Of a DNA stretch of 56,444 nt, positions 19,987 to 50,000 are shown one piece after another. The translations under genes were made by a program, and so were the position numbers. Each line of letters begins with the position of its first letter. Within the stretch, counting starts at the first letter, position 1. Under the pieces are notes generated by a model. The model worked only from the letters and a program-made list of their open reading frames with translations, did not search any database and had not been told where the DNA came from. Origin of the DNA: a virus; IMG/VR virus record IMGVR_UViG_3300019360_000010, positions 1 through 56,444 of that record; one strand, written 5' to 3'.

Positions 19987-20145
19987 TCAGCCTCGGTACT
20001 CGTCTGGCTCGGGGATCGGGTAGCCTAGCAGATCGTACTTGACCCAATAGTACAGCAGCACGACCGGGCTGACGGCAACGCACACGGCCAGCAGCACCAG
20101 TAGCGCCACGTAGCCCAGGCCGATGGCGAGCGCGATGGTTTCCAC
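19987..20145 (-). CDS. Small single-span membrane protein (52 aa)
   Basis: GTG at 20143-20145, immediately after the stop of the next gene (TAG at 20147-20149). The peptide starts VETIALAIGLGYVALLVLLA, has a hydrophobic span of about 28 residues, then YYWVKYDLLGYPIPEPDEYR. Topology is probably N-out/C-in. Small membrane proteins in phage early regions can be superinfection-exclusion or host-membrane factors; nothing more specific can be said. Confidence 0.6.
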   Translation of the reverse strand: METIALAIGLGYVALLVLLAVCVAVSPVVLLYYWVKYDLLGYPIPEPDEYRG

Positions 20146-20146
20146 G

Positions 20147-20503
20147 CTACCGCGCCTTCAGCGCGGCGATGCACAGCGCGAGGGCTGGAGTCGAAGCGTT
20201 CTGGGCCTCGATTTTACATTCTTCATGGTCGAGCATGTCGCGTCCCAAGCTGTCGGCGTCTTGTTCGAGGGTCGCGTGGCAGTATTGACGCCCGACCTTG
20301 TTTCGACTGAGACTAACCTTCACGCATCCGACACCTTCTGGCACCAGCGCCAGTGCGACGTCGATGGAGGTGGTGTAGGGCGGCGCGCGATAGTCGGGAT
20401 TGGTCGTTGGGTAACCTTTCACAAAGTCATCGATTGCTCTGTCCAATCTTCGGGAGCCCTGCTTCACTGCTTTCAGCTTCGCGATGAGTCCCGCGCGCGT
20501 CAT
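20147..20503 (-). CDS. Hypothetical 118-aa protein (phage ABA-sandwich-like)
   Basis: ATG at 20501-20503 overlaps the upstream stop (ATGA). YRAPPYTTSIDVALALVPEG followed by a beta region and STPALALCIAALKAR at the end match a widespread family in phages and prophages of Proteobacteria, which I associate with the ABA-sandwich domain group. The function is unknown. Codon use is less extreme in GC than in neighbours, suggesting later acquisition. Confidence 0.7.
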   Translation of the reverse strand: MTRAGLIAKLKAVKQGSRRLDRAIDDFVKGYPTTNPDYRAPPYTTSIDVALALVPEGVGCVKVSLSRNKVGRQYCHATLEQDADSLGRDMLDHEECKIEAQNASTPALALCIAALKAR

Positions 20504-23277: not shown

Positions 23278-23298
23278 GTGCGTTCTTCTCGTTCTGTC

Positions 23299-23338
23299 GA
23301 TCGACGATGAAGCAGTTCAAACTGCTTCATCGTCGATC
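23299..23338. promoter_or_regulatory. 40-bp near-perfect palindrome upstream of the early operon
   Basis: Arms of 19 bp (GATCGACGATGAAGCAGTT at 23299-23317, complement at 23320-23338) around a 2-bp centre. It lies 22 bp upstream of the SNF2 helicase ATG and would be in the 5' leader. It could be an operator, a cruciform at the origin, or an RNA hairpin that controls the early transcript. Confidence 0.8.
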
Positions 23339-23412
23339 CGTGTGGCCTCAGATCAGACGAGCGTACGGGAACGACCGTCCGTGACCGACCCGACCCGAAT
23401 ACCGAAACGTAT

Positions 23413-23440
23413 TTCAAAATAACAGTGGTTTTATTTTGAA
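23413..23440. promoter_or_regulatory. 28-bp AT-rich inverted repeat, operator-like
   Basis: TTCAAAATAA and TTATTTTGAA, perfect 10-bp arms with an 8-bp spacer, typical of a dimeric regulator site. It is about 140 bp upstream of the first early gene, where a promoter for that operon would lie. No regulator gene in the window is an obvious partner. Confidence 0.6.
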
Positions 23441-23617
23441 CCGTTCTGGTTTATCTTAGCGGTTCCGGCTCGCAAGAGTGCGGGGAGCGAACGAAGTAGT
23501 CGGCCGAGGCGCAGATCTCGGTCGATTACTTGTCTCTACAGTTAGAATGGATAAGGTTGAACTTTCGTAAACAACCCGGAACGAATTGAAGGTAAGTACC
23601 GGGAATATTGGATAAAA

Positions 23618-23934
23618 TCAGCCAATCACCAGGCAATTTTTTGCCAAATAGAACGAAATCAACGGGTTAGGACCCGAAAAAATTGCCTGTTAACCTTCAG
23701 GCAATTAGCGTTGATTTTGTTCGATAAACCGCCTCTTCAACCTTAAATAATCGTTTGATATCAATACCCGTCTTTTCTTCTGATTAGACGCGGGGAGTTT
23801 TTTTTTCGAAAAAATTTTTCAAAAATAAATCAGCCAATCAGCCAATCAGCCAATATTCGACCGGGATCAAGTCCCTGATATCACGGCGAATATTGAATAA
23901 TTGCCTGAGTCCTTGCCTGAAAACTTCAGCCAAT
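23618..23934. repeat. Iteron-like repeat cluster, candidate replication origin
   Basis: CAGCCAAT occurs at about 23619-23626, as three tandem copies at 23831-23854, and at 23927-23934. The related CAGGCAA(TT) occurs at 23630-23638, 23681-23689 (inverted), 23698-23706, 23899-23907 (inverted) and 23913-23919 (inverted). The inverted pair at 23681-23706 makes a 9-bp dyad. Runs of A and T between them would melt easily. Iterons next to an AT-rich stretch and a helicase gene fit an origin. Binding sites for a transcription factor are the alternative. Confidence 0.6.
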
Positions 23935-23960
23935 TCGCTCGGTAAGTATATGATATGACA

Positions 23961-23974
23961 GGGGATTAATCCCC
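23961..23974. promoter_or_regulatory. 14-bp palindrome GGGGATTAATCCCC
   Basis: A perfect palindrome about 125 bp upstream of the NusG-like gene, just downstream of TATATGATATG, which could be a -10 region for the late operon (no good -35 seen). An operator overlapping the late promoter start is possible. Confidence 0.45.
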
Positions 23975-24096
23975 ACGCGTAATTTTTATGAACGTAGGAG
24001 ATTAAATCCACCGGGTACTCGCGCGTAGTTGAGTGGTCGGCGCGGCGCGAGCGCGGTAACCTCCCCCGTACCCGCGCCGTTAAGAGGGGACGAACG

Positions 24097-24576
24097 GTGA
24101 TCGATCAGCAGCGTTGGTATGTAGCCGCGACTCAATCGAAATCCGAACAGCTCGCCGAGGACCATCTTAAACGACAGCACTTCACCGTCATGCTGCCGTG
24201 GATCATCGATCCGACCGGCCGGCGTGAGCTGCGGTTTCCCGGCTATATTCTCGTCGCGTTCGATCGCGACACCGATCGATGGCGGTCGATCAATGGAACG
24301 CGCGGTGTAAAGGCGTTGCTGTTCGGCGAGTATCCGACGCCTCTGCCGCGTGATGCGATCGCGGCGATTCCGGCGATCGAGACCTTCGGTCCGTTCTCCC
24401 CGTCCGCGCGTCCATTTGATACCGGCGACCGCGTGCGCGTGATCGATGGTCCGTTCGAGGGGCACGTTGGCACCATCGGTCTTACCGGCGTTGAGCGCGT
24501 TCAAATACTGCTTAGTTTACTTTCGCGGACCGTTAAGGTATATGTCTCACCCCATCAGATAGACCACGCCGCGTAG
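24097..24576 (+). CDS. NusG/RfaH-like transcription processivity factor
   Basis: A 159-aa protein with an NGN domain (about 5-77: QRWYVAATQSKSEQLAEDHL, then RFPGYILVAF and a NGTRGVKALL end) and a KOW domain (about 108-155: GDRVRVIDGPFEGHVGTI). NusG paralogs bind RNA polymerase and suppress pausing or termination; RfaH-type members work on specific operons. The GTG at 24097 follows AAGAGGGGACG. It is the first gene of the late plus-strand operon, so it probably lets polymerase run through the roughly 29 kb that follows. No ops-type element was identified. The NGN and KOW motifs are clear; specificity is inference. Confidence 0.88.
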   Translation: MIDQQRWYVAATQSKSEQLAEDHLKRQHFTVMLPWIIDPTGRRELRFPGYILVAFDRDTDRWRSINGTRGVKALLFGEYPTPLPRDAIAAIPAIETFGPFSPSARPFDTGDRVRVIDGPFEGHVGTIGLTGVERVQILLSLLSRTVKVYVSPHQIDHAA

Positions 24577-24617
24577 TTGCATACCGAGCGCTACTGCGGT
24601 AGCTATCAGCGGAGACG

Positions 24618-24725
24618 TTGCTGAAACGCTGGTCGGTCTTCAAGTCCATCCTCTTCATTCTCGCGTCGTCGACCATCGCCTGGGCGGTGATCGTGAACGC
24701 GTTCCTTTACCTGTGGAGGCGTTGA
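24618..24725 (+). CDS. Small membrane peptide (35 aa)
   Basis: A 36-codon frame (including stop) from TTG at 24618 (CTG at 24621 is equally possible) behind CGGAG. The peptide reads KRWSVFKSILFILASSTIAW and on to FLYLWRR, a single membrane helix with basic ends. Its stop overlaps the next ATG (TGATG). The non-standard start keeps confidence low; the overlap with the next gene favours it. Confidence 0.4.
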   Translation: MLKRWSVFKSILFILASSTIAWAVIVNAFLYLWRR

Positions 24726-24985
24726 TGGGTAAGCTCAGTAAGCTCGTAGCTGCTGTTGCTGGTCCGCGATCGGAGAACGAGTACGCGTCGATCGACGTGC
24801 GGAAGATCGACAACGGATACGTCACGCGTCAGTCGCGTCACAGCGACGATGGCGGATACGAGTCGAAGGAGACGTTCTCTCCGGATCGCCCGTCGCTCGA
24901 GGCCGAGGTCGCGCCGCCGCCCGATGCGGGCCAGGCGGCCGGTGCCGGGTTGATGGCGCGCGCTAAGCGCGTGCTGAGTCGATAG
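24725..24985 (+). CDS. Hypothetical 86-aa protein
   Basis: ATG at 24725 with GGAGG 5 nt upstream, which decides against a longer GTG start at 24713. Starts MGKLSKLVAAVAGPRSENEY, has a YASIDVRKIDNGYVTRQSRH core, then an acidic Pro-rich linker and a short basic helix. Small proteins with this I-x-N-G-Y-V-x-x core recur in phage late regions near structural genes; role unknown. Confidence 0.65.
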   Translation: MGKLSKLVAAVAGPRSENEYASIDVRKIDNGYVTRQSRHSDDGGYESKETFSPDRPSLEAEVAPPPDAGQAAGAGLMARAKRVLSR

Positions 24986-24994
24986 GAGGTAGAG

Positions 24995-25213
24995 GTGGCT
25001 CGTAACAAAGACGGCAACATGAACAAAGAACCTCCTCGCGACATGTTTTCGCCAAAACAGGTCGCGGGTTTCAAGGCATTTCTTTCAAGCAGAAAGGATC
25101 ATAAACCGCGCGACACGCACGCTATCGCAAAGAAAGCCGCCGCGACGCGCAAGGCCCACGGTTCGGGTCTCTCCGGCAACCTCGCTCGCGCCGGTGCCCA
25201 CGCGAAGCGATGA
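24995..25213 (+). CDS. Hypothetical 72-aa basic protein
   Basis: GTG at 24995 behind AGGAGGTAGAG. Starts MARNKDGNMNKEPPRDMFSP and is rich in Lys, Arg and Ala towards the C-terminus (AIAKKAAATRKAHGSGLSGN). Highly charged and probably nucleic-acid-binding or disordered. It overlaps the O-antigen-ligase-like gene (ATGA). Confidence 0.6.
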   Translation: MARNKDGNMNKEPPRDMFSPKQVAGFKAFLSSRKDHKPRDTHAIAKKAAATRKAHGSGLSGNLARAGAHAKR

Positions 25214-26286
25214 CGTATTTCTTCGGCGCTCTCATCACCGCCTTCTATCTCCCCTGGTATCCTCGATCGGGTGTCGAGTTCCGCTGGGTGGTGATCCTGG
25301 TGGGCATATCGGCGCTGATGTGGGCCGAACGTCGAGAACTGCCGTGGACGTTGGCCGTAAAGCTGTTCGCGGCGTTCTACGTCCTCGCCACCTGCTCACT
25401 GGCCTGGTCGGACTACCCGTTGTTGTCGATCGGTCGTTGGTTTGAGCTGACGGCGCTGGCGGTCGTGTTCTATCTCGGTGGCGTGCTGGAACGCGTGGAT
25501 GAGCTGCTGACCGGGTTGATCATCGGTCTGGTGCCGTCCGTACTGCTGCTGCCGTTTCAGCTCGCGGGCTGGTCGCCGGTCGAACAGTGGTCCGTACCGG
25601 CGGGGGTTTTCGTCAGTAAGCTGCAGCTCGTTGAGGTAGCGGTCCCGCTGTTGTTCGTATCGGTTGCGCGCGGTTGGTGGTGGAGCGCGCTGATCTGCGC
25701 CTCAGCGGCGATCCTGCCGTCCGTGCGTGGCGCGTGGCTGGCGCTCGTCGTGACATCACTCATCGCGATGACGCGCCGGCCACGTTGCGACTGGCGCTGT
25801 CTAACCGGCGCGACGTGTCTGTTACTGTTGTTTGCCGTCGCGTTGGGGGTGCTGCTGAACCCGATCACCGTTCAACACCGGTTGCTGATCTGGTCCGAGA
25901 CGATCGCCGCCCTCACGCCGCTCGGCCACGGGCTCGGTTCGCACCTCCCGGTGTACGGCGCGGCGCACGCGCACAACGACTTTCTGGAGATCGCATACGA
26001 GCTCGGTGTACCCGGCGTGATGTTGTTCGTCGTGGCGATATCGTCGTTGACGCGGTTCGGTGGAGAGTGGCATGGTATCGTCAGTCTCGTCATCTTGTCG
26101 CTTACCTCTTTTCCCCTTCAAAATCCGGCGTCGAGCGTGGTGTTCGCGTTGCTTGCTGGCGGTCTGGCTGTTGATCGTTGGCGCGCATGGTACGATGATC
26201 GTGATGAGCGAGATCGTGTTCGTGAGGAGCTTTTCGCTGACGTCCGACGATCGCCCGCTGGCTATCCGGTTCGCGGCCGCTCTTGA
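25210..26286 (+). CDS. O-antigen ligase/polymerase-like polytopic membrane protein
   Basis: A 358-aa protein with about ten hydrophobic spans. SVRGAWLALVV (171-181) resembles the Arg-Gly loop of the WaaL/Wzy family, and AHAHNDFLEIAYELGVPGV (252-270) is the Wzy_C signature (H-x-H-N-x-x-L-x-x-x-x-E-x-G). Family members join polysaccharide repeat units or move O-antigen to lipid A core in the inner membrane. A host-derived surface-polysaccharide enzyme in a phage late operon could change LPS to stop released virions from adsorbing to debris or kin. It lies directly below the NusG-like gene. The ATG overlaps the upstream stop. The C-terminal 30 residues overlap the next gene in another frame. Confidence 0.78.
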   Translation: MTYFFGALITAFYLPWYPRSGVEFRWVVILVGISALMWAERRELPWTLAVKLFAAFYVLATCSLAWSDYPLLSIGRWFELTALAVVFYLGGVLERVDELLTGLIIGLVPSVLLLPFQLAGWSPVEQWSVPAGVFVSKLQLVEVAVPLLFVSVARGWWWSALICASAAILPSVRGAWLALVVTSLIAMTRRPRCDWRCLTGATCLLLLFAVALGVLLNPITVQHRLLIWSETIAALTPLGHGLGSHLPVYGAAHAHNDFLEIAYELGVPGVMLFVVAISSLTRFGGEWHGIVSLVILSLTSFPLQNPASSVVFALLAGGLAVDRWRAWYDDRDERDRVREELFADVRRSPAGYPVRGRS

Positions 26287-26404
26287 TCCGACGAGTCGGA
26301 AACTGTACCAGTTCACGGTGATCCTTGATACGATGGCACAACCCCAGCACGCGGCCACCGCAGGCCAAACCGGTACCGGTAGTCAAAACGGTGCCGCCCG
26401 CTGA
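26204..26404 (+). CDS. Hypothetical 66-aa protein (overlapping)
   Basis: ATG at 26204 (an ATG three codons upstream, at 26195, is also possible). Starts MSEIVFVRSFSLTSDDRPLA and continues LYQFTVILDTM with a disordered tail. It overlaps the 3' end of the membrane-protein gene by 83 nt in a different frame and the next gene by 14 nt or more. No ribosome-binding site is obvious, so this is a weaker call. Confidence 0.45.
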   Translation: MSEIVFVRSFSLTSDDRPLAIRFAAALDPTSRKLYQFTVILDTMAQPQHAATAGQTGTGSQNGAAR

Positions 26405-26693: not shown

Positions 26694-26698
26694 AACGA

Positions 26699-27220: not shown

Positions 27221-27249
27221 CCGCCGGTCCACATCCCGGCGACTAGCGC

Positions 27250-27302
27250 GGCGGCCGAGTTTCCCCTGGTGCATTCCCTGTGAGCTGGCGAGCTCGGCCG
27301 CC
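27250..27302. terminator. Hairpin in the 27221-27334 gap
   Basis: GGCGGCCGAG (27250-27259) pairs with CTCGGCCGCC (27293-27302) over a 33-nt loop, followed by GTCGTTTCC. It may attenuate or process the late transcript between the secreted protein and the next genes; with a NusG-like factor upstream, readthrough is expected. Confidence 0.4.
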
Positions 27303-27334
27303 GTCGTTTCCACCGCGTATCAAAGGAGATCTAC

Positions 27335-27517: not shown

Positions 27518-27541
27518 TCACGAGCTGAAGGAGCGCCCTCG

Positions 27542-27892: not shown

Positions 27893-27951
27893 AGCGCGAC
27901 GGCCGGCGCGCGCTTTAATCGCCGACCAACCACTAGCGAGGAGATATCTGA

Positions 27952-28422: not shown

Positions 28423-28429
28423 CCTCGCG

Positions 28430-35678: not shown

Positions 35679-36235
35679 TGGCCAAGCGCACGCCGGCATA
35701 TCCGACGTTGAAGACGGGCGAGCGTACAAAGTACGCGCCTGAGTTCGATGATCTCGCGTTTCGTGCTAAGCTGCTGGGCGCGACCGATGAGCAGCTCGCC
35801 AAGATGCTGCGCGTGTCGGCCACTTCGATCTCGCGCTGGCGCAACACGATCGAGTCGTTCGATCTCGCCTGCCGGAAGGGCGAGCTGGAGGCGGACACGC
35901 GCGTCGCCGAAGCGCTGTACAACCGGGCGATCGGGACGATCGTCACCGATCAGGTCGCGATCAAGGTGAAGAAGGGCAAGGATCTCGAGGAGGTAGAAGT
36001 CATCGATCTCGAGAAGACGATCCCGCCCGACACGACCGCGCAGATGTTCTGGTTGAGGAACCGCGCGCGTCGACGCTGGCAGTCGCAGCCCGACGAGAGC
36101 GACGATGACGAACGTCCGACGCGCGACGTGCGCATCACCTTCATCTCCCCTGGTAGCGTGCAGGTCGTACCGCCGGGGAAGTCGCTGATGCCCGCGTTCG
36201 TTGACGTGACGCCGAAGGGTACGGCCGATGATTGA
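35678..36235 (+). CDS. Terminase small subunit (TerS-like)
   Basis: A 185-aa protein directly upstream of TerL, overlapping it by 8 nt. The N-terminal HTH is ATDEQLAKMLRVSATSISRW (35-54). An oligomerisation helix (KGELEADTRVAEALYNRAIG) and a DTTAQMFWLRNRARRRWQ segment follow, as in TerS proteins of PBSX/P22-like packaging systems. TerS binds the packaging site and hands the DNA to TerL. ATG at 35678 (TGATG). Confidence 0.8.
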   Translation: MAKRTPAYPTLKTGERTKYAPEFDDLAFRAKLLGATDEQLAKMLRVSATSISRWRNTIESFDLACRKGELEADTRVAEALYNRAIGTIVTDQVAIKVKKGKDLEEVEVIDLEKTIPPDTTAQMFWLRNRARRRWQSQPDESDDDERPTRDVRITFISPGSVQVVPPGKSLMPAFVDVTPKGTADD

Positions 36236-37550
36236 GGAAGTTGAGGACGTACCGATCGGGGCTCAGTTCCCCGAGATCACGCGGTTCCTCTTCGATCCGA
36301 AGCGGTTCAAGATAGCGTACGGCGGTCGCGGTGCCGCGAAGTCATGGAACTTCGCCCGGGCGTTATTGATCAAGGGATACCAGAGCAAGAAACGTATCCT
36401 CTGCTGCCGTGAGTATCAGAACACGCTCGCGGACTCGTCGCATCAGCTTCTCCAGGATCAGATACGGTTGCTGGATCTGACGGATCACTACCGGATCTTC
36501 GAGAACAAGATCGAAGGTGCGAACGGAACCAAGTTCAGGTTCTTCGGGTTGCGCAAACAGTTCAACGAGATCGCGTCGTTCGAAGCGATCGACATCGTCT
36601 GGGTGGAAGAAGCGAACACCACCTCGAAGGCATCGTGGACAAAGCTGATCCCCACGATCCGAAAGGACGGCTCCGAGATCTGGGTCTCGTTCAACCCGGA
36701 GCTGGACACCGACGAGACCTACAAGCTGTTCGTTGTCAACACGCCACCGGACGCGGCCGTCGTGAAGATGACCTGGCAGCACAACCCGTGGTTCCCGAAG
36801 GTCCTGAATGAGGCTCGTCTTCACGATCGTCGGACGAAGCCGGAGGACGAGTATCTTCACGTCTGGGAAGGTCAGTGCCTGCGATGGCTTGAGGGTGCGG
36901 TGTTCGCCGAAGAGATGCGCGCGGCCGAACTGGCGGGTCGCATCACCAAGGTCCCGTACTTCGTCGGGTCGCCGGTGGACACGGTGTGGGACCTCGGGCG
37001 CGGCGACAACACGTCGATCTGGTTCCGGCAGCGTGTCGGGATGGAGTGGCGGTACATCGACTTCTACGAGAACAACCGTAAGCACATCTCGCACTACCTC
37101 GAGGAGCTACAGCGCCGGAGCTACGTGTACGGCACGCACTACCTTCCGCACGACGGTGAGGCCGAGCAGCTCGGTAGCAAGATGACGGTAGAAGAGCAGG
37201 TCCGCGCGGTGTTCCCGGGGAAGGTCCGGGTCATCCCGGCGCAGTCCACGCAGGACCAGCTCAACGCGGCGCGCACGACGTTTCCCAACTCGTACTTCGA
37301 TCAGGAGAAATGCACGGACGGTCTGCAGCACCTTCGTTATTGGAAGTATAAGATTGATCCGCACACGCGTCAGCGGAACCGAGAACCGGAACACGACATT
37401 CATTCGCACGCGTCGAAAGCCTACATCTACTCGGCACTGACATCGTTAGCGAAGGTGGCGAAGAAGCTAGACCTCGAGCCGCCGGTCGAACGCCGCAAGG
37501 TTCAGCTCGGTGATCTGTCATCGAGCGCTAACCAAGCTTGGATGGGCTGA
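36228..37550 (+). CDS. terL: Terminase large subunit
   Basis: A 440-aa Terminase_3/PBSX-type TerL. The ATPase has Walker A YGGRGAAKS (31-39) and Walker B AIDIVWVEEA (120-129, catalytic Glu128), with a SFNPE coupling motif (154-158). The nuclease has VWDLGRGDNTS with Asp255 and Asp260, and LPHDG with Asp309. It drives DNA into the capsid through the portal and makes the headful or site-specific cut. TerLs of this group often belong to headful-packaging phages, which would explain a circularly permuted assembly. ATG at 36228. Confidence 0.93.
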   Translation: MIEEVEDVPIGAQFPEITRFLFDPKRFKIAYGGRGAAKSWNFARALLIKGYQSKKRILCCREYQNTLADSSHQLLQDQIRLLDLTDHYRIFENKIEGANGTKFRFFGLRKQFNEIASFEAIDIVWVEEANTTSKASWTKLIPTIRKDGSEIWVSFNPELDTDETYKLFVVNTPPDAAVVKMTWQHNPWFPKVLNEARLHDRRTKPEDEYLHVWEGQCLRWLEGAVFAEEMRAAELAGRITKVPYFVGSPVDTVWDLGRGDNTSIWFRQRVGMEWRYIDFYENNRKHISHYLEELQRRSYVYGTHYLPHDGEAEQLGSKMTVEEQVRAVFPGKVRVIPAQSTQDQLNAARTTFPNSYFDQEKCTDGLQHLRYWKYKIDPHTRQRNREPEHDIHSHASKAYIYSALTSLAKVAKKLDLEPPVERRKVQLGDLSSSANQAWMG

Positions 37551-37552
37551 TC

Positions 37553-39619
37553 ATGGCGCGTCGCGGTACCGATACCGAAGTTATCATGGAAGCGAAGGGA
37601 AACTTCACACGGACCGCGCGGTGGGAGTCGTACGCGCGTCGCAACTTTCTCGAGGACCTTAAGTTCGCCGAGGCAGACGCGGACAACGCGTATCAGTGGC
37701 CGAACGACATCCGGCGCAACCGGGAGATCGACCAGCGCCCGTGTCTTACCATCAACAAGACACGTCAGTTCAACCTTCAGATCTTGAACGACATGCGCGA
37801 CAACAAACCGTCGCCGAAGGTGATCGCGGTTGGCAGTGAGTCCAACAAGGCTTCGGCTGACATCTTTCAGGGCGTCATCCGCCACATCGAAGACATCAGC
37901 AACGCCGACGCGACGTATCAGCTCGCGGCCGACTTCCAGGTGAAGGCCGGGATCGGATATTGGCGACTGGAGACGGGATACGCGGCGGGGAACACGTTCG
38001 ATCAAGAGATCTTTATCCGGCCGATCCTCGATCCGTTGTCGGTGTACATGGACCCCGACATCAAGGAGAAGGATGGGTCAGACGCGAAGTTCGCGTTTCA
38101 TTTCGAGAACATGTTGAAGACCGAGTTCAACGAACGTTACCCGAAGTTCAAGAACAAGGGCGCGCAGTCGATTTTTGGCGACTTCAGCTACCGGACGGAC
38201 GACGATCACTACCGCGTCTGCGAGTACTACCGGCGTGTGGACGAAGAAGATACGTTGATCTTCATGCCGGACGTGAACCAGTTCGTCCGTGAGTCGACGA
38301 TCCGAAAGCTAGGTGCCGACAACCTGACGCGAAAGCTGCTGGACGAAGATCGCATCCAGCGCCGGACGATCATCACGACGCGGATCGAGTGGTACGTGAT
38401 GTCAGGCATGCAGATCCTCGAAGAGGGTGAGATCGTCGGCACGTACATCCCGATCATCCGCGTTCCGGGCGAGGAGTCGATCATCGACGGTCGGATGGAT
38501 CGAAAGGGTCACACGCGCGCGCTCAAAGATCCTCAGCGCATGTACAACTACTGGTCCTCGTCGGCCGTCGAAGCGTTGGCGATCCAGACCAAGACACCAT
38601 GGCTCGCGCCGGCTGCTGCGATCGAAAACTACGAGGTGTACTGGCGTCAGGCGAACCGGGCGAACACCTCCGTTCTGCCGTACAACAACCGCGATGACGA
38701 CGGCAACGAGATCGCGCCGCCGCAGCGGATCAACCCGCCGACGATGCCGTCCGGCTTCATGTCCGGCATGGAAGTCGCCAACAACGAGATGATGATGGCG
38801 TCGGGCCAGTACCAGTCGATGATGGGACAGCCGGCGAACGAGCGGACGGGCAAGGCGATCAACAACCGGCAACGTCAGGGTGATCGCGCAACGCTTCACT
38901 ACGCGGACAACCTGGGACTGGCGATCCGTCACACCGGCCGCGTCCTCGTTCAGTGGGTGCCGTTGATCTACGACACCGCGCGGGTCATCCGCATCCTTGG
39001 CGAAGACGGTACCGAGGACCAGGTGACCGTCAATCCGCAGGCGGCGCAGGCGATGACGCAGCAGCGAAACGTGCTGACCGGTCAAGTCCAGAAGATCTTC
39101 AACCCGAAGGTCGGCCGGTACGACGTGCGCGTCACGATCGGACCGTCGTACGCGACGCGGCGTCAGGAAGCGTTCGACGCGCTGATGATGATCATCGCGC
39201 AGAACCAGCAGATCGCACCGCTCATCTCCGACCTGGCCTTTCGCAGCGCCGACTTCCCTGGGTCGGAGGAACTGGCCGATCGGCTCAAGCGAACGGTGCC
39301 GCCGGAAGTTCTCGGCGAAGCGCCACCGCCAAACGTTCAAGCGATGCAGGCGCAGGTCGCTCAGCTCCAGCAGCTCGTAGAGACGTTGACCGCGACGATG
39401 CAGGAGAAGGATCTGAAGTACAAGAAGCTCGAGGCCGATCGCGAGATCGAGGGGTACCGCGCGATCAGCGATCGGATGAAGGTGCTGGGCGCGGGCATGA
39501 CGCCGGATCAGGTCCTCGCGACCGTGCAACAGCTACTGGTGAACGCTCAGCTGATCAACATCGAACCGGAAACGGTCGAGCCGCAGATCGCGCCGATGCC
39601 GAACGGTCAGGGGATGTGA
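37553..39619 (+). CDS. P22-like portal protein
   Basis: A 688-aa protein similar to podovirus P22-type portals: ARRNFLEDLKFAEADADNAY near the N-terminus, RPCLTINKTRQFNLQILNDM, ATYQLAADFQVKAGIGYWRL, and the crown/barrel region RTGKAINNRQRQGDRA. The C-terminal 90 residues form a coiled coil (MQAQVAQLQQLVETLTATMQ), comparable to the P22 barrel. Length is near P22 gp1 (725 aa). A dodecamer would form the DNA entry vertex. Starts at the ATG at 37553; an upstream ATG at 37538 is inside TerL. Confidence 0.9.
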   Translation: MARRGTDTEVIMEAKGNFTRTARWESYARRNFLEDLKFAEADADNAYQWPNDIRRNREIDQRPCLTINKTRQFNLQILNDMRDNKPSPKVIAVGSESNKASADIFQGVIRHIEDISNADATYQLAADFQVKAGIGYWRLETGYAAGNTFDQEIFIRPILDPLSVYMDPDIKEKDGSDAKFAFHFENMLKTEFNERYPKFKNKGAQSIFGDFSYRTDDDHYRVCEYYRRVDEEDTLIFMPDVNQFVRESTIRKLGADNLTRKLLDEDRIQRRTIITTRIEWYVMSGMQILEEGEIVGTYIPIIRVPGEESIIDGRMDRKGHTRALKDPQRMYNYWSSSAVEALAIQTKTPWLAPAAAIENYEVYWRQANRANTSVLPYNNRDDDGNEIAPPQRINPPTMPSGFMSGMEVANNEMMMASGQYQSMMGQPANERTGKAINNRQRQGDRATLHYADNLGLAIRHTGRVLVQWVPLIYDTARVIRILGEDGTEDQVTVNPQAAQAMTQQRNVLTGQVQKIFNPKVGRYDVRVTIGPSYATRRQEAFDALMMIIAQNQQIAPLISDLAFRSADFPGSEELADRLKRTVPPEVLGEAPPPNVQAMQAQVAQLQQLVETLTATMQEKDLKYKKLEADREIEGYRAISDRMKVLGAGMTPDQVLATVQQLLVNAQLINIEPETVEPQIAPMPNGQGM

Positions 39620-39922: not shown

Positions 39923-40804
39923 ATGGACAAGATCTGGTATCGACGGCTGTTCGACACGGCGAACGAGGGTGGCGGTGGTGGCGCCGATCCGGCCGCGCCG
40001 GCCGCGCCCGCGAAGACCGAGGAGAGCGGCGATCCGGCCGCGCCGGCCGCGCCGGTAAAGGTTACGCCGGCACCGGACGCGTGGAAGGACCAGCGCATCA
40101 GCGAGCTGACGTTCCAGAAGGCGCAGGAAAAGCAGCTGCGCGACGCGGCCGACGCCGAGAACAAGCGGCTGAAGGCTCGTCTCGCGGCGGCGAACCTCAC
40201 CGAGGAAGTTGGCGATGCGGCACCGGAGTCGGTGACGCCGCGTCAGCAACCGACGCGTCAGGTCAACGACGAGGATATCGCGAAGGTCGCCGACGTGTTG
40301 GCCGACAGCAAGGCGGCCAAGATCCTCTTCGACAAACAGTGCAACGACACCTTCAGCCGGGGCACGGTGGCGTACAAAGACTTCAAGGAGTCGATCGACA
40401 CACTGAAGCAGACCGGGTTCACGGATAACCGGGAAGCGCTGGAGACCGCTGTGAACCTGCCCGATCCCGAGGACGTGATGTACTTCCTCGGGAAGAACCC
40501 GATCCGCGCGCAGCAGATCGCGGCGATGCCCGCGATGGCCCGGACCGTCGCGCTGGTACAGATCAGCAACGATCTGAAGGCCGCGAAGAACACGGGCGTG
40601 GTTGAAGCTGGCTCGGGCGTGGTTCCGAGCGACGGCAGGACCGTGACGCTGACCGGCGCTCCCGCGCCCGTCCGCACGCTGCGTGGCGGCACGGCCGCCG
40701 CCGGTCAGGTCGATCTCTACGACACGAAGAACGTGTCGATGGATGATTGGGTCAAGAAGCGCGACGCCGACGTGGCCGCGCGTCGCGCTGCACGAGCCAG
40801 CTGA
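39923..40804 (+). CDS. Scaffolding protein (putative)
   Basis: A 293-aa protein immediately upstream of the coat gene, behind AAAAAGGAGAG. The N-terminus is Ala/Pro-rich and disordered, then a coiled coil follows (TFQKAQEKQLRDAADAENKR), a helical core, and a basic C-terminus (KKRDADVAARRAARAS). The basic helix at the end matches coat-binding tails of P22-type scaffolds. No protease motif is visible. Confidence 0.75.
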   Translation: MDKIWYRRLFDTANEGGGGGADPAAPAAPAKTEESGDPAAPAAPVKVTPAPDAWKDQRISELTFQKAQEKQLRDAADAENKRLKARLAAANLTEEVGDAAPESVTPRQQPTRQVNDEDIAKVADVLADSKAAKILFDKQCNDTFSRGTVAYKDFKESIDTLKQTGFTDNREALETAVNLPDPEDVMYFLGKNPIRAQQIAAMPAMARTVALVQISNDLKAAKNTGVVEAGSGVVPSDGRTVTLTGAPAPVRTLRGGTAAAGQVDLYDTKNVSMDDWVKKRDADVAARRAARAS

Positions 40805-40995: not shown

Positions 40996-42210
40996 ATGAA
41001 CAGTCTTCTGACGATCGATATGATCACGCGGGAGGCGGTGCGGTTGTTCCGTAACAGCAACGCCTTCATCCAGAACATCAATCGACAGTACGACGACCAG
41101 TATGCACGCGACGGTGCCAAGATCGGCACCACGCTGCGCATCCGGTTGCCGAACGACTACACCGTCCGGACGGGCACCGCGCTTCAGGTCCAGTCCACGA
41201 CGGAACAGCAGATCACGATGACGCTCGCCACCCAGAAGGGTGTCGACGTCTCGTTCAGCACGGCCGAGCGCACCATGAGCTTGGACGACTATTCCGAGCG
41301 AGTGTTGTCGCCCATGATCAACAACCTGGCCGGTGACATCGCTAACGACATCATGTCGGGCAGCGAAACCGGGATCTGCAACTTCGTCTCGAACGTGGAC
41401 GGCTCGAACAACATCATCGCGCCGACCGCGACTCAATTCCTCGAGGCGGGTGCCTATCTCAACGACAACTCGGGTCCGATGGGTGACCGCAAGGTCATCA
41501 ACGATCCGTGGACCGACGCGCGTGTCGTCGGGTCGTTGACGGGGCTGTTCAATCCACAGCCGCAGATCAGTGAGCAGTACAAGACCGGTTCGATGCGCGG
41601 ACAGGCTCTTGGCTTCTCGAACTGGATGATGGATCAGACCGTCATCAAGCATCAGGCCGGTACTTTCACCGCCGGCACGGTGGCCGGTGCCAACCAGACC
41701 GGTACGACGCTGCTGCTGAACGCGATCACCGGCACGCTGAACGCTGGTGATATCATCACCATCGAGGGCGTGTACGCGGTCAACCGGGTCACCAAGGAGA
41801 CCACGGGCAAGCTTCGACAGTTTGCCGTTCAGTCGGACGTGGCGGCGCTCGGCACGTCGGTCACCCTGTACCCGGCGATCATCCCGGCGATCGCGGGCGT
41901 CAAGCAGCAGTACCAGACGGTTACGGCCTCGCCGGCCAACCTGGCCGCGCTGTCTCTGACGACGAAGGCCAGCGAGATCTACCGTCACAACATCGCATAC
42001 GCTCCGGATGCGGTGACGATGGCGACCGCTGACCTGGAACTACCGCGCGGCGTCCACGAGGCCGCGCGCGAGTCGTTCGACGGCGTGTCGATGCGCATGA
42101 TCACCGACTACCTCGTCGGTACCGATCAGATGATCACGCGGCTCGACATCCTCTACGGCTTCCTCTACGTGCGCCCCGAGTGGGGCTGCGTGGTGGCGGA
42201 CAAGATCTAA
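40996..42210 (+). CDS. Major capsid protein, P22-coat-like
   Basis: A 404-aa protein following the scaffold. N-terminal arm MNSLLTIDMITREAVRLFRN, then NINRQYDDQYARDGAKIGTT and LRIRLPNDYTVRTGTALQVQ, as in P22-like coat proteins (HK97 fold, 430 aa in P22). A beta-rich insertion (FTAGTVAGANQTGTTLLLNA to VYAVNRVTKE) corresponds to an I-domain-like element. It ends LYGFLYVRPEWGCVVADKI. Strong expression is expected. Confidence 0.88.
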   Translation: MNSLLTIDMITREAVRLFRNSNAFIQNINRQYDDQYARDGAKIGTTLRIRLPNDYTVRTGTALQVQSTTEQQITMTLATQKGVDVSFSTAERTMSLDDYSERVLSPMINNLAGDIANDIMSGSETGICNFVSNVDGSNNIIAPTATQFLEAGAYLNDNSGPMGDRKVINDPWTDARVVGSLTGLFNPQPQISEQYKTGSMRGQALGFSNWMMDQTVIKHQAGTFTAGTVAGANQTGTTLLLNAITGTLNAGDIITIEGVYAVNRVTKETTGKLRQFAVQSDVAALGTSVTLYPAIIPAIAGVKQQYQTVTASPANLAALSLTTKASEIYRHNIAYAPDAVTMATADLELPRGVHEAARESFDGVSMRMITDYLVGTDQMITRLDILYGFLYVRPEWGCVVADKI

Positions 42211-42241: not shown

Positions 42242-42263
42242 CCGGGCGGCTTCGGCCGCCCGG
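42242..42263 (+). terminator. UUCG tetraloop hairpin after the coat gene
   Basis: A 9-bp perfect GC stem CCGGGCGGC / GCCGCCCGG (42242-42250, 42255-42263) closed by a TTCG tetraloop and followed by CCTTCTTTC. This is a stable intrinsic-terminator or 3'-end protecting hairpin. Partial termination here would raise coat mRNA relative to genes downstream. The weak T tract suggests incomplete stop. Confidence 0.7.
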
Positions 42264-42525: not shown

Positions 42526-43257
42526 ATGACCACCGCGCGAGATATCTGCCTTCAGGCTCTCAAGGACTCGGGCATCATCGGCGTCGGTCAAACGGCGTTG
42601 GCGGAAGACATCAACGACTCCTTTACGGCACTGAACCAGATGCTCGCGCAGTGGCGACGCAAGCGGTTTCTGATCCCGTACCTGAGCACCATCAGCAAGA
42701 TATCGACGGCCGCGCAGACCTACTCGATGGGGCCAGGGGGTGATTTTGACACGGGCACGGGCATCTCGCGCCCGGACAAGATCGAGTCAGCGTACTTCCG
42801 TCAGAAGACGGGGCAGCCGAACAACGAGGTGGACTTCGGTCTCACCATCATTCCGTCGCGCGAACAGTACAACCAGATCTCGTTGAAGACGCTTCAGACG
42901 TTTCCGAACTGGGTGTACTACGAACCGACGTTCCCGCTCGGCACGTTGTACTTTTGGCCGATCCCGCAGGCGAACATCTACGAGATGTTCGTATCGGTGA
43001 AATCGACACTGCAGCGGTTCGTCGATCTCAACACCATCATCGTGTTGCCCGAGGAATACGAGGCGGCGCTGCGGTTCTGTCTGGCGCAGCGGCTGCTGTT
43101 GATCTATCAGCTCCCGCCGAACGAGAACTTGATGCGATTGGCAAAGGACGCGCTCAACGTCGTGCGCGGCGCGAACGTCCAGCTTGCATCGCTCGAAGTT
43201 CAGTCTGAACTCATCCGTCCGGGTCTGTACAATGTATACTCGGACAGCATTTATTAA
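42526..43257 (+). CDS. P22 gp4-like head-tail adaptor / DNA stabilization protein
   Basis: A 243-aa protein. TARDICLQALKDSGIIGVGQ, ALNQMLAQWRRKRFLIPYLS, SMGPGGDFDTGTGISRPDKI and YEAALRFCLAQRLLLIYQLP match the gp4 family that fits between portal and tail hub. It closes the portal after packaging. The order after the coat gene agrees with P22-type head modules. Confidence 0.85.
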   Translation: MTTARDICLQALKDSGIIGVGQTALAEDINDSFTALNQMLAQWRRKRFLIPYLSTISKISTAAQTYSMGPGGDFDTGTGISRPDKIESAYFRQKTGQPNNEVDFGLTIIPSREQYNQISLKTLQTFPNWVYYEPTFPLGTLYFWPIPQANIYEMFVSVKSTLQRFVDLNTIIVLPEEYEAALRFCLAQRLLLIYQLPPNENLMRLAKDALNVVRGANVQLASLEVQSELIRPGLYNVYSDSIY

Positions 43258-43444
43258 GAGAGCGCTGTCGGCTGCGGAGTTCCGAGCGTTCATGACCGGC
43301 GAGGTCGCGTACGTTCGTCGCGCGCCGCTGAAAGGTTTCGTGTTGTACCACGCGGACGGGTCGATCGTCGCCGCCGATCCGGATGAGCTGAACTTGATCC
43401 GGATGTGTTGGAACAACGACGTGTTCTGTCAACGGGTTCACTGA
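43232..43444 (+). CDS. DUF1150-like protein (70 aa)
   Basis: ATG at 43232, overlapping the gp4-like gene by 26 nt. EVAYVRRAPLKGFVLYHADG and the -FCQRVH end resemble DUF1150 (M-x-Y-V-R ... H-A-A-D-G ... V-H), a family I know mainly from Alphaproteobacteria. Function unknown. It may be an acquired host gene and supports an alphaproteobacterial host. Confidence 0.6.
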   Translation: MYTRTAFIKRALSAAEFRAFMTGEVAYVRRAPLKGFVLYHADGSIVAADPDELNLIRMCWNNDVFCQRVH

Positions 43445-44868
43445 TGAAGCTTCCACTTACCGGTGGTTTTTACGTCGCTCAGTCGCTTCTCGCTTCGGCG
43501 CAGCGGTGCGTGAACCTGTATCCGGAGACCAACCCGTCGGAGTCGACGTTCCCGTTCACACACTACCAGACGCCAGGATCGTTGAAGCTCGGTGCGCCGC
43601 CGGCCGCCGGTTCCGGGCGCTGCATCTACCGCGCGTCCAACGGCGCGTTGTACGCCGTGGTCGCGCAGAACGTCTACGCGATATCGAGCGCCTGGGTATA
43701 CACGCTTCTCGGTTCGATCAGCTCGCCGCCGAACCCGTGCTACATCGCGGACAACGGCGTGGACGCGTTGCTGGTGGATGGGACGCCGAACGGCTATATG
43801 TGGGATCTCGCGACCGACACGTTCGCGCCGTTCGTCGATCCGAACTTCTACGGCGCAGACCGCGTGGACTATGCGAGCCTGCGGTTCGTGCTGAACAAGC
43901 CTGGTACACCGATCTTCTACTACAGCGAACCGACCTCACTGGTGTTCGACCCGCTCGACTTCGCCGCGAAGTCCGGTTCGCCGGACCCGCTGATCTCGAT
44001 CATCGCGTCGCTCGATCAGGTCTGGCTCCTCGGCGAGTTGACGACTGAAGTGTTCTACAACGCGGGCGCGACCGACGCGATCTTCGAGCGTCAGCCTGGT
44101 TCGTTCATGGAACACGGCTGCGGTGCGAAGTACTCCGTCGCCAAGGCGGATGTCTGGACGTTCTGGCTCGGCCAGGACCGGCAGGGCACGCACATCGTCT
44201 ATCGTGGCGAAGGATATCAGGCGCGACGGATCAGCACCTCGGCGATCGAGAACGTCCTCGCGGGATACTCGACCGTGGCCGACGCGGTGGGTTTTACCTA
44301 CCAGCAGAACGGCCACCTGTTCTACATCCTGGTGTTCCCGACCGCCAACGCCACCTGGGTGTTTGACTGTGCGACGAACCTGTGGCACGAACGTGCCTGG
44401 ACTGATCCTGACGACGGCACGCTCAACCGCATCCGTGCGAACGGCGTGGCGTTCGCCTACGACAAGAACATCACGATCGACTGGGAGAACGGCGCGATCT
44501 ACGAGCTCCGTCTTGACCTGTTCGTAGACGACGCGTCGCCGATCACGCGCGTCCGGTCGTGGGCGAACGTCGTAGAAGAGGGAAAGCGCGTTCTCTATCG
44601 TCAGTTCACCGCGTGGATCGATGCCGGCACGATCATGCAGCCGGGTGAAGATCCGTTGATCGGCTTGCGCTGGTCGGACGATGGCGGCAACACCTGGGGT
44701 AACACGGTGCTGCAGTCGATCGGCAAGACCGGCACGTACAACACGACGCCGAACTGGTCACGGCTCGGATATGGCCGCAACCGCGTGTTCGAGCTCAGCT
44801 GGTCAATAAACGCTAAGGCGGCGCTGCAGGGCGCGTTCGTCGAAGTATCCGGAGTCAGCAAGACGTGA
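43444..44868 (+). CDS. Tail hub / packaged-DNA stabilization protein (474 aa)
   Basis: The N-terminus KLPLTGGFYVAQSLLASAQR with CVNLYPETNPSES is typical of a podovirus tail family (P22 gp10-like position; similar to Bcep22/BPP-1-type proteins). The rest is beta-propeller-like (FVDPNFYGADRVDYASLRFV, VWLLGELTTEVFYNAGATDA, WTFWLGQDRQGTHIVYRG). It probably forms the hexameric tail hub to which spikes or fibres attach. TGATG start overlap. Confidence 0.82.
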   Translation: MKLPLTGGFYVAQSLLASAQRCVNLYPETNPSESTFPFTHYQTPGSLKLGAPPAAGSGRCIYRASNGALYAVVAQNVYAISSAWVYTLLGSISSPPNPCYIADNGVDALLVDGTPNGYMWDLATDTFAPFVDPNFYGADRVDYASLRFVLNKPGTPIFYYSEPTSLVFDPLDFAAKSGSPDPLISIIASLDQVWLLGELTTEVFYNAGATDAIFERQPGSFMEHGCGAKYSVAKADVWTFWLGQDRQGTHIVYRGEGYQARRISTSAIENVLAGYSTVADAVGFTYQQNGHLFYILVFPTANATWVFDCATNLWHERAWTDPDDGTLNRIRANGVAFAYDKNITIDWENGAIYELRLDLFVDDASPITRVRSWANVVEEGKRVLYRQFTAWIDAGTIMQPGEDPLIGLRWSDDGGNTWGNTVLQSIGKTGTYNTTPNWSRLGYGRNRVFELSWSINAKAALQGAFVEVSGVSKT

Positions 44869-45188
44869 GCGACACGCAGTTCCAAGGTTTTCCGGATCTC
44901 AACCAGCCGGTCGTCGAGAAGGGCGGTCGGTTGACGCTGATCTGGTACCGGTTTCTTACCTCGCTGTGGCGGCGGACCGGCGCGGGCGGCGCGGGCAGCG
45001 CGGTGTTTTCCGGCGCCCCCCTGGACCCCGTGGCCGATCGCGGGTTTCTCTACGTGGCCGGCGGTGACGGTCCACCCATCGGAACGCCGCTCGTCTACTC
45101 GGGTCAGTCCGCGTTCTACGCCGACTACACGAACAAGAAGATGTATGTATTCTTCTTCGGTGACAACGCCTGGACGGCGCTGAACTAG
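44865..45188 (+). CDS. Hypothetical 107-aa protein, tail region
   Basis: GTG at 44865 overlapping the hub stop (GTGA). QPVVEKGGRLTLIWYRFLTS is a recurring N-terminal motif in phage tail-region proteins (often fused to fibres), followed by a small beta domain (YSGQSAFYADYTNKKMYVFF). Possibly a tail connector. Function not established. Confidence 0.65.
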   Translation: MSDTQFQGFPDLNQPVVEKGGRLTLIWYRFLTSLWRRTGAGGAGSAVFSGAPLDPVADRGFLYVAGGDGPPIGTPLVYSGQSAFYADYTNKKMYVFFFGDNAWTALN

Positions 45189-45199
45189 GAGACAGCACC

Positions 45200-46216
45200 A
45201 TGGGTTTTGATCCGTTCACGATGATGCTCGGCGGTTCTGCGCTGAACGGCATCTTCGGTAGCCTGGGCAGCTTGTTCGGTTCCTCGTCGCAGTCGAAGGC
45301 TGCGGACAAGGCGATGCAGTTCGCTCAGAACCAGTTCATGATGTCGAAGCAGTTCCAGGAGGAGATGCTTGCGAAGGCGAAGGAGATCCTGGGACAGGGG
45401 AGGGACTCGGCGTCGAACTATCTGATCGGCGGTCGCGACGTCTCGAACAAGTATCTCCAGGACAGTTTGATCCAGTCGAACCTGTTGACGCAGGGTGGTA
45501 TGTCGCTGGGCCTCGATCAGCTGTCACCGTACGCCGCGCTCGGCGGTGAGGGGATCGAAGCGTTCAACGCGAACAAGAACCTCCTGATGAACCCGTTGGT
45601 GATGGATCAGGAAGCGCTGGAGAAGACGCCGGGGTATCAGTTCGCGTTGAACCAGGGCCTTCGCGCGCAGCAACAGTCCGCCACGACGCGCGGCCTCGGC
45701 CTGTCCGGCGCGCAGCTGAAGGGCGCGTCAGAGTTCGCCACCGGTCTGGCGGATCAGACCTACGGCAACCAGTTTCAGCGCGAGCTGTCGAACCGGAACG
45801 ACCTGTTCTCGCGGATCAGCGGCATGATCGGTGGCGGCGCGAGCGCGGCCGGTTCGATGGCGAACATGCTGTTCGGTGGCAACGAGTCGATGGCGAACCG
45901 CACCATGGGACTCGGCAACACGATCAGCGGCAACAACATGGCGACGGGCGGCGCGCTCGCCGGGAACGAGATGGACACGGCGCGCGCGATCGCGCAGATC
46001 ATGTTTGGGACCGGTGCGAACGTCGGCGGCAACAACATGCAGCTCGCCGGGCTCGGGTCGAACGCGCTGATGCAGCAGGGCAACGCGAACGCCGCCGGTA
46101 TCATGGGGATGTTCAACTCGCTCGGCGGCGCGCTCGGCAACATGGGCAACATGTCGATGATGAGCAGCTTGTTCGGTGGCGGCAACATGTTCAGCACCTC
46201 CGGCAAGCTGTCGTAA
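45200..46216 (+). CDS. Internal virion / DNA-ejection protein 1 (338 aa)
   Basis: Behind TAGGAGACAG. The N-terminal hydrophobic Gly-rich stretch is MGFDPFTMMLGGSALNGIFG; next come KTPGYQFALNQGLRAQQQSA and GLGLSGAQLKGASEFATGLA, a signature of DNA-transfer proteins of Bcep22/BPP-1-type podoviruses. The C-terminus is rich in Gly, Asn and Met. It corresponds in place to P22 gp7, ejected into the envelope. Confidence 0.75.
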   Translation: MGFDPFTMMLGGSALNGIFGSLGSLFGSSSQSKAADKAMQFAQNQFMMSKQFQEEMLAKAKEILGQGRDSASNYLIGGRDVSNKYLQDSLIQSNLLTQGGMSLGLDQLSPYAALGGEGIEAFNANKNLLMNPLVMDQEALEKTPGYQFALNQGLRAQQQSATTRGLGLSGAQLKGASEFATGLADQTYGNQFQRELSNRNDLFSRISGMIGGGASAAGSMANMLFGGNESMANRTMGLGNTISGNNMATGGALAGNEMDTARAIAQIMFGTGANVGGNNMQLAGLGSNALMQQGNANAAGIMGMFNSLGGALGNMGNMSMMSSLFGGGNMFSTSGKLS

Positions 46217-46226
46217 GGATATCGCC

Positions 46227-47843
46227 ATGACGATGGGCATGCTTGATACGTCGTTCTATCCGAAGAACAACGCGCTTCAGCAGCGTGATCCGCTGCAGAT
46301 GATGTCCACGATGATGGGCATCCAGCAGCAGGCGAACCAGAACCGGCTGTTCCAGCAGGAGTTCGCCGATAAGTCGATGGAGAACCAGCTCTACTCCAAG
46401 GCTGCGATCGACCCGGAGACCGGCCTACCGGACATGACCAAGATGGCGCAGGCCGCGCAGGGCATGGGTGCGGGTCGCCTGCTGCCGCAGATCATGGAGC
46501 GCGTTCAGCAGCAGCGCCAGCGTCAGCTCGAGATGATGTCAAAGCAGCTCGGTATCGCCAAGGATCGGTTTGACTACACCGCGAAGATCATGTCGCCGCT
46601 CGCCGGCAAGGAAGATCTGAACCAAAAAGACGTCGCGATGGCGTTTTCCAACCTGATGGATCAGGGCTTTCTCACGTCGCAACAGACCGCGCAGATACTC
46701 ATGGGCATGCCGCCGGGCGGCGATCCGCGCGCGCTGCGTCAGTGGGTCACGCAGAACTACCTGATCCCGACGTTGGACGCGCAGCAGAAGGTCAACTTCA
46801 TGTATGGCACGAGCGGCATGGCGAACGCCGGCAACAAGCTCGTGCCGTACACGCAGATGCCGGGCGGCGAGATCAAGACCAGCGGCCAGTCCATCCCGAT
46901 CGGTCTCTCACCGGACTCGGCCGCCGCGCCGCGTGAGATGATAGTGCCGTTGCCGGGCGGTGGCACGGTGAAGATGGCCGTGCCGGCGGCAGCCTGGCTG
47001 AAGCTCGGTGGCGGTGCGACCGAGCTGCCGCGCAACGATCAGGGTCTATCGCCACCGGAAGCGAACCGACTCGTTACGCTGAAGAACGAAGAAGGTCAAG
47101 AGTTTAAGATGACCGAGGCTCAGATCCTCAAGCAGCTCGGCGTTGGCGGCGCGGGCGTTGCGGGGCAAGGTGTCGGTGGCACCGCTACGCCAACCGCTAC
47201 CGGGCCGAAGCTGGGTGCGGGCACGCAGGCCGACGCGTCGGCGAAGCAGGGCGTGGAGCTGTCGCAGCAGGCCGATCAGGTTCCGACGCGCAAGGCGGAC
47301 CTGTTTAACCTGCGCGCGCTCAGCAAGACGTTTGCCGGTGGTCCTACAGCGGATATGGCGTTGAAGTTGAAGCAGTTCGCTAACACCTGGGGTATCCCGT
47401 TCGATCCGAAGGGAACGGCGGGTCAGGAAGAGTTCGACAAGATCGCGTCGCAGATCGCGTTGAAGCAGCTGCAGACGATCGGGACGGGCACCGACGAAAA
47501 GCTCGGCGCGGCGATGAAGGCCAACCCCTCCGCGTATCTTACGAGGATGGGACGCGACGGCATCATCTCGATGATGCTCGGGAACGAAGATGCGTTGAAG
47601 ACCAAGGCGGACGAGTGGCAGGCCTGGCAGGAAGCCGGCAACGGTCCGGGCACCTACGGCAAGTTCTCGAAGGAGTTCGGCCGCACCTTCAACCCGCGCG
47701 TGTTCCAGACGATGTACATGGAACCGAAAGCGATCGACCTCATGGTCAGGGACATGTCGACAAAGGAGAAGAAGCAGTTCGAGAAGGACTACTCTTTCGC
47801 GATCACCAAGGGGTGGGTCGCTGACCCGCGCGTGAAGCAGTGA
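46227..47843 (+). CDS. Internal virion / DNA-ejection protein 2 (538 aa)
   Basis: ATG at 46227 behind AAGGATATCGCC. Gln/Met-rich helical N-terminus (QQQANQNRLFQQEFADKSME), a beta segment in the middle, Gly/Ala/Thr linker (GVAGQGVGGTATPTATG), and a helical C-terminal domain (DLMVRDMSTKEKKQFEKDYS). Place and composition match P22 gp20-like ejection proteins. No lytic transglycosylase motif seen. Confidence 0.7.
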   Translation: MTMGMLDTSFYPKNNALQQRDPLQMMSTMMGIQQQANQNRLFQQEFADKSMENQLYSKAAIDPETGLPDMTKMAQAAQGMGAGRLLPQIMERVQQQRQRQLEMMSKQLGIAKDRFDYTAKIMSPLAGKEDLNQKDVAMAFSNLMDQGFLTSQQTAQILMGMPPGGDPRALRQWVTQNYLIPTLDAQQKVNFMYGTSGMANAGNKLVPYTQMPGGEIKTSGQSIPIGLSPDSAAAPREMIVPLPGGGTVKMAVPAAAWLKLGGGATELPRNDQGLSPPEANRLVTLKNEEGQEFKMTEAQILKQLGVGGAGVAGQGVGGTATPTATGPKLGAGTQADASAKQGVELSQQADQVPTRKADLFNLRALSKTFAGGPTADMALKLKQFANTWGIPFDPKGTAGQEEFDKIASQIALKQLQTIGTGTDEKLGAAMKANPSAYLTRMGRDGIISMMLGNEDALKTKADEWQAWQEAGNGPGTYGKFSKEFGRTFNPRVFQTMYMEPKAIDLMVRDMSTKEKKQFEKDYSFAITKGWVADPRVKQ

Positions 47844-49954: not shown

Positions 49955-50000
49955 CCCGGACACGAAGCCGGCGATCGCGATGATCGCAAGGGAAACGACG

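Follow-up and report, generated by a model that had tools for sequence, protein, structure and literature searches.

A phage RfaH-type factor probably keeps host RNA polymerase running through the virion-gene block of this virus. The window, meaning the whole stretch of DNA analysed (a 56,444-base IMG/VR virus record), is split into two divergent arms. The reading that we consider fairly likely is that a phage-borne specialised NusG paralog of the RfaH type works on its own virion operon in the rightward arm. Computation provided the protein family, its position, an ops-like site behind its gene and the recurrence of the order 'paralog, then terminase' in other phages. RfaH-type factors have so far been linked to cell-surface, antibiotic and conjugation operons. 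If the reading is true, a phage RfaH-type factor with a loading site in the same operon adds viral late-gene control to these targets. It would also point to a signal that recruits an operon-resident paralog and provide natural ops variants for specificity tests. Within the limits of the PMC library, a literature search yielded no account of phage late genes being controlled by a NusG paralog.

The leftward arm encodes a DNA polymerase, thymidylate-synthase, dCMP-deaminase, DNA methyltransferase, primase and helicases. The rightward arm carries P22-type TerL, portal, scaffold, coat, Ad3, Hc3, ejection and tail genes. The main features are:

23278..24096, no strand: AT-rich control region of 819 bp between the divergent arms (spacing of the arms; promoter scan)
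24097..24576, plus strand: RfaH-like NusG paralog of 159 aa, GTG start, NGN and KOW domains (Pfam, PHROG, tree, AlphaFold2)
36228..37550, plus strand: large terminase TerL, proposed target operon (protein family match)
37538..39619, plus strand: P22-type portal (protein family match)
39923..40804, plus strand: head scaffold (protein family match)
40996..42210, plus strand: major head protein (protein family match)
42526..51284, plus strand: Ad3, Hc3, ejection and tail genes, proposed distal targets (protein family matches)

The paralog is the first ORF to the right of the control region and heads the 29-kb rightward arm with its virion genes, as the preliminary description had stated. A crude 300-bp codon-phase test favoured the plus strand in 79 of 99 segments of the right arm and the minus strand in 56 of 71 segments of the left arm. 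A sigma70 consensus scan of the control region (23278..24096) found no promoter, and Rfam models had no match above gathering on 23200-28500. The PF00940 profile (phage RNA polymerase) had no match either, but its control was equally silent, so this null is without weight. Between 23640 and 23920, the control region is AT-rich with repeated CAGCCAAT/CAGGCAATT units. Scans of IMG/VR with the helicase and the portal yielded no close relative of the whole phage, and the portal shares at most 45% identity with known phages. Both ends of the window (1-60 and 56385-56444) have the same short repeats of the GGCGCCCGCGAGGTAGGC type, which suggests an assembly break inside a repeat.

The domains of the paralog are intact, in agreement with the preliminary description. 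Pfam NusG (PF02357) matches residues 6-91 (E=1.2e-14, 55 bits, cut-off 22.2) and Pfam KOW (PF00467) residues 110-127 (22.5 bits, cut-off 22.3). The AlphaFold2 model comprises an NGN domain and a KOW barrel at a mean pLDDT of 90.4, and Foldseek with this model led to NusG/RfaH structures. PHROG 6386, a 'transcription antiterminator', matches with E=3.2e-13, and the best phmmer match in the PDB is E. coli RfaH (9.7e-12). Matches in Pfam, PHROG and NCBIfam were to NusG/Spt5-type families only, with no homology to lambda-type N or Q. NCBIfam gave the top score to RfaH (TIGR01955, 82.3 bits), ahead of NusG (TIGR00922, 50.1 bits, cut-off 135.7). The curated RfaH cut-offs were missed by TIGR01955 (144.5) and by NF006534 (54.4 bits, cut-off 124). 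The protein is RfaH-like without strict RfaH membership, because its TIGR01955 score is the best yet remains under the curated cut-off. A quick tree of 126 rows, following the phylogenetic check against NusG and RfaH that had been proposed, places it outside the NusG outgroup. It falls into a superclade with E. coli RfaH, bacterial RfaH-like proteins and phage paralogs; support for the superclade is SH-aLRT 85, and the branching order within it is not settled. NGN followed by one KOW, the place in the tree apart from NusG and the ops-contact residues make it a broad member of the RfaH-like specialised NusG paralogs.

The RfaH residues H20, R23, Q24, N70, T72, R73 and G74 are identical in the window protein, as H23, R26, Q27, N66, T68, R69 and G70. 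We take H20, R23, Q24, N70, T72 and G74 to be ops-contact positions of RfaH. K10 and R73 bind DNA according to excerpts of PMC7593976; K10 is not kept and is replaced by Q13. The loop ahead of FPGY is shorter than in RfaH. Among positions compared for fold-switching autoinhibition, RfaH I93 corresponds to I88 and F130 to I127; E48 was paired by eye with E44, whereas MAFFT sets a gap there. The autoinhibited alpha-hairpin of RfaH left no sign in the AlphaFold2 model, in which the CTD is a barrel.

The stretch directly behind the gene contains the candidate loading site:

24590..24607, plus strand: ops-like candidate recruiting element GCTACTGCGGTAGCTATC, with the 8-base core GCGGTAGC at 24596-24603 (matrix scan)
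24618..24725, plus strand: possible small ORF of 35 aa, TTG start, one hydrophobic stretch (ORF call alone)

The core sits 19 nt past the stop codon of the paralog, and the small ORF starts 41 nt past it. We take the E. coli ops core to be identical to the 8-base core. The element also contains a GCTAC/GTAGC inverted repeat. The preliminary description had expected a recruiting element in the leader 23975-24096; no ops match and no exceptional fold (z=-0.24) occur there, and the candidate lies behind the gene. A 15-base ops matrix was built solely from 25 sites behind bacterial relatives of the paralog. It ranked position 24596 first of 112,888 window positions, with 20.3 bits against 13.4 for the next, and none of 20 shuffles reached 20.3 bits. 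The ranking varies with the range, and the ranges were picked after the flank difference had been seen: rank 1 with 15 bases (-3 to +12) and 17 bases (-5 to +12), rank 5 with 17 bases from -1 to +16. With a 30-base matrix, the site has only rank 29 because the TTCACCC flank, typical of most bacterial sites, is missing. The target operon has an ops element in the form of the core 24596-24603, not in the form of the bacterial flank. A scan with the ops consensus GGCGGTAGNNTG at up to two mismatches is uninformative alone because the window counts equal the shuffle level.

The window has a weaker ops-like sequence at a stop/start junction of the leftward arm:

20143..20154, minus strand: CGCGGTAGCGTG (motif and matrix scans)

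It has GCGGTAGCGTGGAAA in common with several bacterial elements. Its function is doubtful, and it may be a coding coincidence.

Bacterial relatives provided the closest sequences. The paralog had matches at E<=1e-10 in 84 of 385 alphaproteobacterial genomes, the best with 46% identity. The sample comprised 70 of 86 places (30 + 40) and four added plasmid relatives. The 16 places left out were weaker or covered just the second part of the query, and three fetched places were without a tblastn match. Conserved sequence behind the gene, typically TTTCACCCGGACTGCGGTAGCGTGG, includes the E. coli ops core; at these alphaproteobacterial loci it resembles an extended ops/JUMPstart-like element just downstream of the RfaH-like gene. 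Of 68 relatives, 25 (L034 to L113) have an exact GCGGTAGC in the 250 bp downstream of the gene, compared with 0/69 upstream, none antisense downstream and a shuffle mean of 0.18. The other 43 relatives, including the closest one (L033), have no exact core behind the gene. An EPS-type MarR regulator adjoins the gene in 10 of the 14 larger bacterial contexts fetched, and phage reference proteins had no match in these 14. Among the plasmid relatives whose surroundings were read, three lie beside EPS-type or sugar-transferase genes and one in a tra operon.

The arrangement recurs in phages. An IMG/VR search with an alignment of the window and bacterial paralogs yielded 90 viral relatives, of which 80 were kept. 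TerL was searched with phrog_2 in all 80 contigs and with phrog_9 in 59 (27 contigs without a match in the first phrog_2 round and 32 of the second round). It was detected in 41 of 80 contigs: by phrog_2 in 21/48 and 12/32, by phrog_9 in 9/59, in one contig by both. The remaining 39 contigs had no TerL match, so the phage nature of every contig is not given. In 40 of 41 contigs (33/34 non-redundant), TerL follows the RfaH-type paralog downstream on its strand, and in 22 non-redundant contigs it does so within 1.5 kb. The sole exception to the order is L138, a 62-kb contig in which circularity would reconcile it. In the window, TerL starts 11.7 kb past the paralog, a greater distance than in any of the 40 phages. 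Of 63 non-redundant phage contigs, 12 have the exact ops core in the 250 bp downstream of the paralog (upstream 1/62, antisense 1, shuffle mean 0.28, maximum 3). It is absent behind the paralog in the other 51; a conserved block of L117/L123 contains near-variants, for example GCGGCAGC and GCGGGAGC. Housekeeping-like nusG genes in the 'phage' records L003-L008 are probably contamination. MT836476, MT837544, MT837051, MT837845 and MT838961 (MT83xxxx fecal scaffolds) look like clostridial housekeeping NusG, and the Microcystis phage MaAM05 resembles a bacterial secE-nusG-rplK-rplA cluster; none was counted as a phage paralog.

From these data we infer the location of the promoter, pausing, binding and antitermination, with the virion genes as the target. 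Host RNA polymerase would start in the control region and transcribe the paralog gene. Slightly further on, it would pause at the ops-like element 24596-24603. The NGN domain could then bind the exposed non-template DNA at ops and clamp onto the polymerase. The loaded complex would cross the 29-kb virion operon with less pausing and less Rho-dependent or hairpin termination. No promoter-like match was found on the plus strand between 24577 and 40997, and we infer a single transcript spanning the right arm. Three features lie along this path:

25210..26286, plus strand: Wzy_C / O-antigen-ligase-like membrane protein of 358 aa (PF04932, 33.8 bits, cut-off 31.7)
27248..27304, plus strand: long G+C-rich intergenic hairpin without a T run (fold z=-3.36)
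42242..42263, plus strand: terminator-like hairpin after the coat gene with nine G-C pairs, a TTCG loop, an interrupted T tract and the tail CCTTCTTTCG (terminator scan)

The preliminary description had named the hairpins at 42242 and 27250 as internal barriers. The former is terminator-like, the top such site within 24577-44000, and a plausible obstacle for the loaded polymerase; as a set, terminator-like sites do not exceed the shuffle level (13 against 12.8 expected). The latter folds, but it lacks a T run and is not classed as a terminator. The head of the arm may in part be a cargo module, because the O-antigen-ligase-like gene stands between the paralog and the virion genes. This weighs against the preferred reading, as do the missing TTCACCC flank, the relatives and phage contigs without an exact core, the loss of K10, the shorter loop, the long distance to TerL, the lack of a recognised promoter and of a leader terminator, and the barrel CTD of the model.

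This gene is central to the main rival explanation, a captured surface-polysaccharide module. The RfaH-like gene, ops and the ligase-like gene 25210-26286 would have been acquired together from an EPS locus of a host; the factor would serve the cargo gene, in a lysogenic-type conversion or superinfection exclusion, not the virion genes. The EPS-type MarR regulator beside the nearest bacterial relatives (10/14 contexts) and the EPS genes flanking plasmid relatives fit such an origin. So does the Wzy_C protein itself, which had no match among 50,697 phage records. However, elsewhere in phages the RfaH-type paralog precedes the terminase (40/41). The polysaccharide-like gene of the window is alone, with two or three small ORFs intervening, and same-strand virion genes follow with no new promoter recognised before 40997. 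Capture of a module is unlikely, though it is the strongest competitor. Less probable by a clear step is a trans-acting modulator of the host, which would work on ops-bearing polysaccharide operons of the host and alter the cell surface during infection. The same ops core in alphaproteobacterial relatives means that a phage RfaH-like protein could load there, but an ops site behind the phage gene and the repeated place before the terminase would be left unexplained.

Two further explanations are very improbable. The preliminary description had considered that the protein displaces host NusG and uncouples host transcription. The NGN and KOW domains are indeed common to NusG. Yet NCBIfam scores and the tree group the protein with RfaH-like paralogs and outside the NusG outgroup, most of the compared DNA-contact residues of RfaH are kept, and a candidate sequence-specific loading site is present; these results argue against a replacement. 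The ops-like match might also be due to chance, with a paralog that responds to a different signal or needs none, and we give this similarly little credence. The 8-mer GCGGTAGC occurs twice per strand in the window, about the level expected overall, and its flank is not conserved. Against chance, the match has the direction of the gene and follows it immediately, a placement seen in 25/68 relatives. About 0.003 copies are expected in this gap of the window, and the 15-base score is unique in the window.

The preferred reading, an RfaH-type factor acting on its own virion operon, has parallels in known systems. E. coli RfaH/ops shares the NGN-KOW architecture, most of the compared DNA-contact positions and a long target operon. 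It differs in being unlinked to its targets and in serving cell-surface operons, whereas the window paralog resides in its own phage operon, scores under the curated RfaH cut-off, has no K10 and gives no sign of an alpha-hairpin CTD in the model. Bacteroides UpxY, Myxococcus TaA and plasmid tra-operon paralogs are operon-resident like the window paralog; excerpts of Wang et al. 2020 (PMC7593976) describe them as encoded within the operon they are thought to serve, and call the recruitment of such paralogs unknown. They target capsule, antibiotic and conjugation genes, in contrast to a virion operon with an ops site. The alphaproteobacterial EPS-locus paralogs are the closest sequences (up to 46% identity) and have the ops core just downstream in 25/68, but their neighbours are EPS genes and a MarR-type regulator, and they have the extended TTCACCC flank. 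Lambda Q and N exert late or early antitermination with a leader element. Presumably, these proteins and their recruiting sites are unrelated to those of the window. The claim of a scheme unlike N, Q or put stands insofar as a phage NusG paralog heads the late arm with a recruiting element, in an arrangement recurring in many phages; the element lies outside the leader proposed for it.

A second phage class, phrog_6386, was found via one viral match and comprises temperate phages of rhizobia and Agrobacterium. Its paralog sits between an O-like replication gene and the terminase, the place of Q in lambda. Agrobacterium phage Rivra, Sinorhizobium phi2LM21/phi3LM21 and Rhizobium PPF1 share with the window a NusG paralog before late genes and a cis element of the shape TGC-NNNN-GCTAT. 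They differ in belonging to another clade and in having a covarying RNA hairpin and a leader terminator, both missing from the window, where no leader terminator was found past ops. In the annotated phages, the paralog is followed by the RNA element, an intrinsic terminator and then the terminase. The gaps have a hairpin CCYTGA...TCARGG in common, followed by GTGC-NNNN-GCTATG (L001:8615-8680, L020:12693-12758, L021:43569-43634, L023:12619-12684; also L197-L276). Across eight sequences, 92.7% of cells pair, and 5 of the 12 pairs show two-sided changes; with 69 distinct rows, in an alignment fitted to the structure, 7 of the 12 do.

The DNA pattern alone found at least 80 loci in IMG/VR. In 74 of the 80 listed loci, a same-strand paralog ORF ends 94-156 bp upstream, and none lies elsewhere; three of the six others have the element no more than 142 bp from the locus start. 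Of the 80, the covariance model matches 77. In 55 of 72 cases, the following 150 bp contain a terminator-like hairpin (2.6 expected; upstream 0/71), which almost always lies 14-33 bases into the stretch scanned. Hairpin, GTGC-NNNN-GCTATG and terminator together resemble an antitermination leader that many phages carry and that appears to be undescribed. The covariance model of this RNA element, R1, recovers all eight training loci and has no match in the window. The class backs the general idea and the window is not a member, because R1 is absent from it. A run on the 385 alphaproteobacterial genomes, made without a positive control, gave no R1 match.

On balance, the two classes favour a wider proposal, held slightly less firmly than the reading of the window: more than once, tailed phages would have installed NusG paralogs where lambda has Q, to serve as late-gene antiterminators, with at least two styles of recruitment. 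RfaH-type paralogs would load at a DNA ops behind their own gene (the window and a dozen or more contigs). For the second class, the loading site would be a covarying RNA hairpin joined to an ops-like sequence, directly ahead of an intrinsic terminator. The TGC-NNNN-GC loop is GGTA in the RfaH-type class versus mostly GAAA, TACA, GCAA and GTAA in the phrog_6386 class; this difference could be what each factor reads. For phiLM21-like prophages, excerpts of a 2025 paper (PMC12429752) list a 'transcription antiterminator' in all and do not mention NusG. In Nostoc phage Nsp-JY10 (L020), paralog and leader are near those of L001 and rhizobial phages, and the Nostoc host label looks doubtful.
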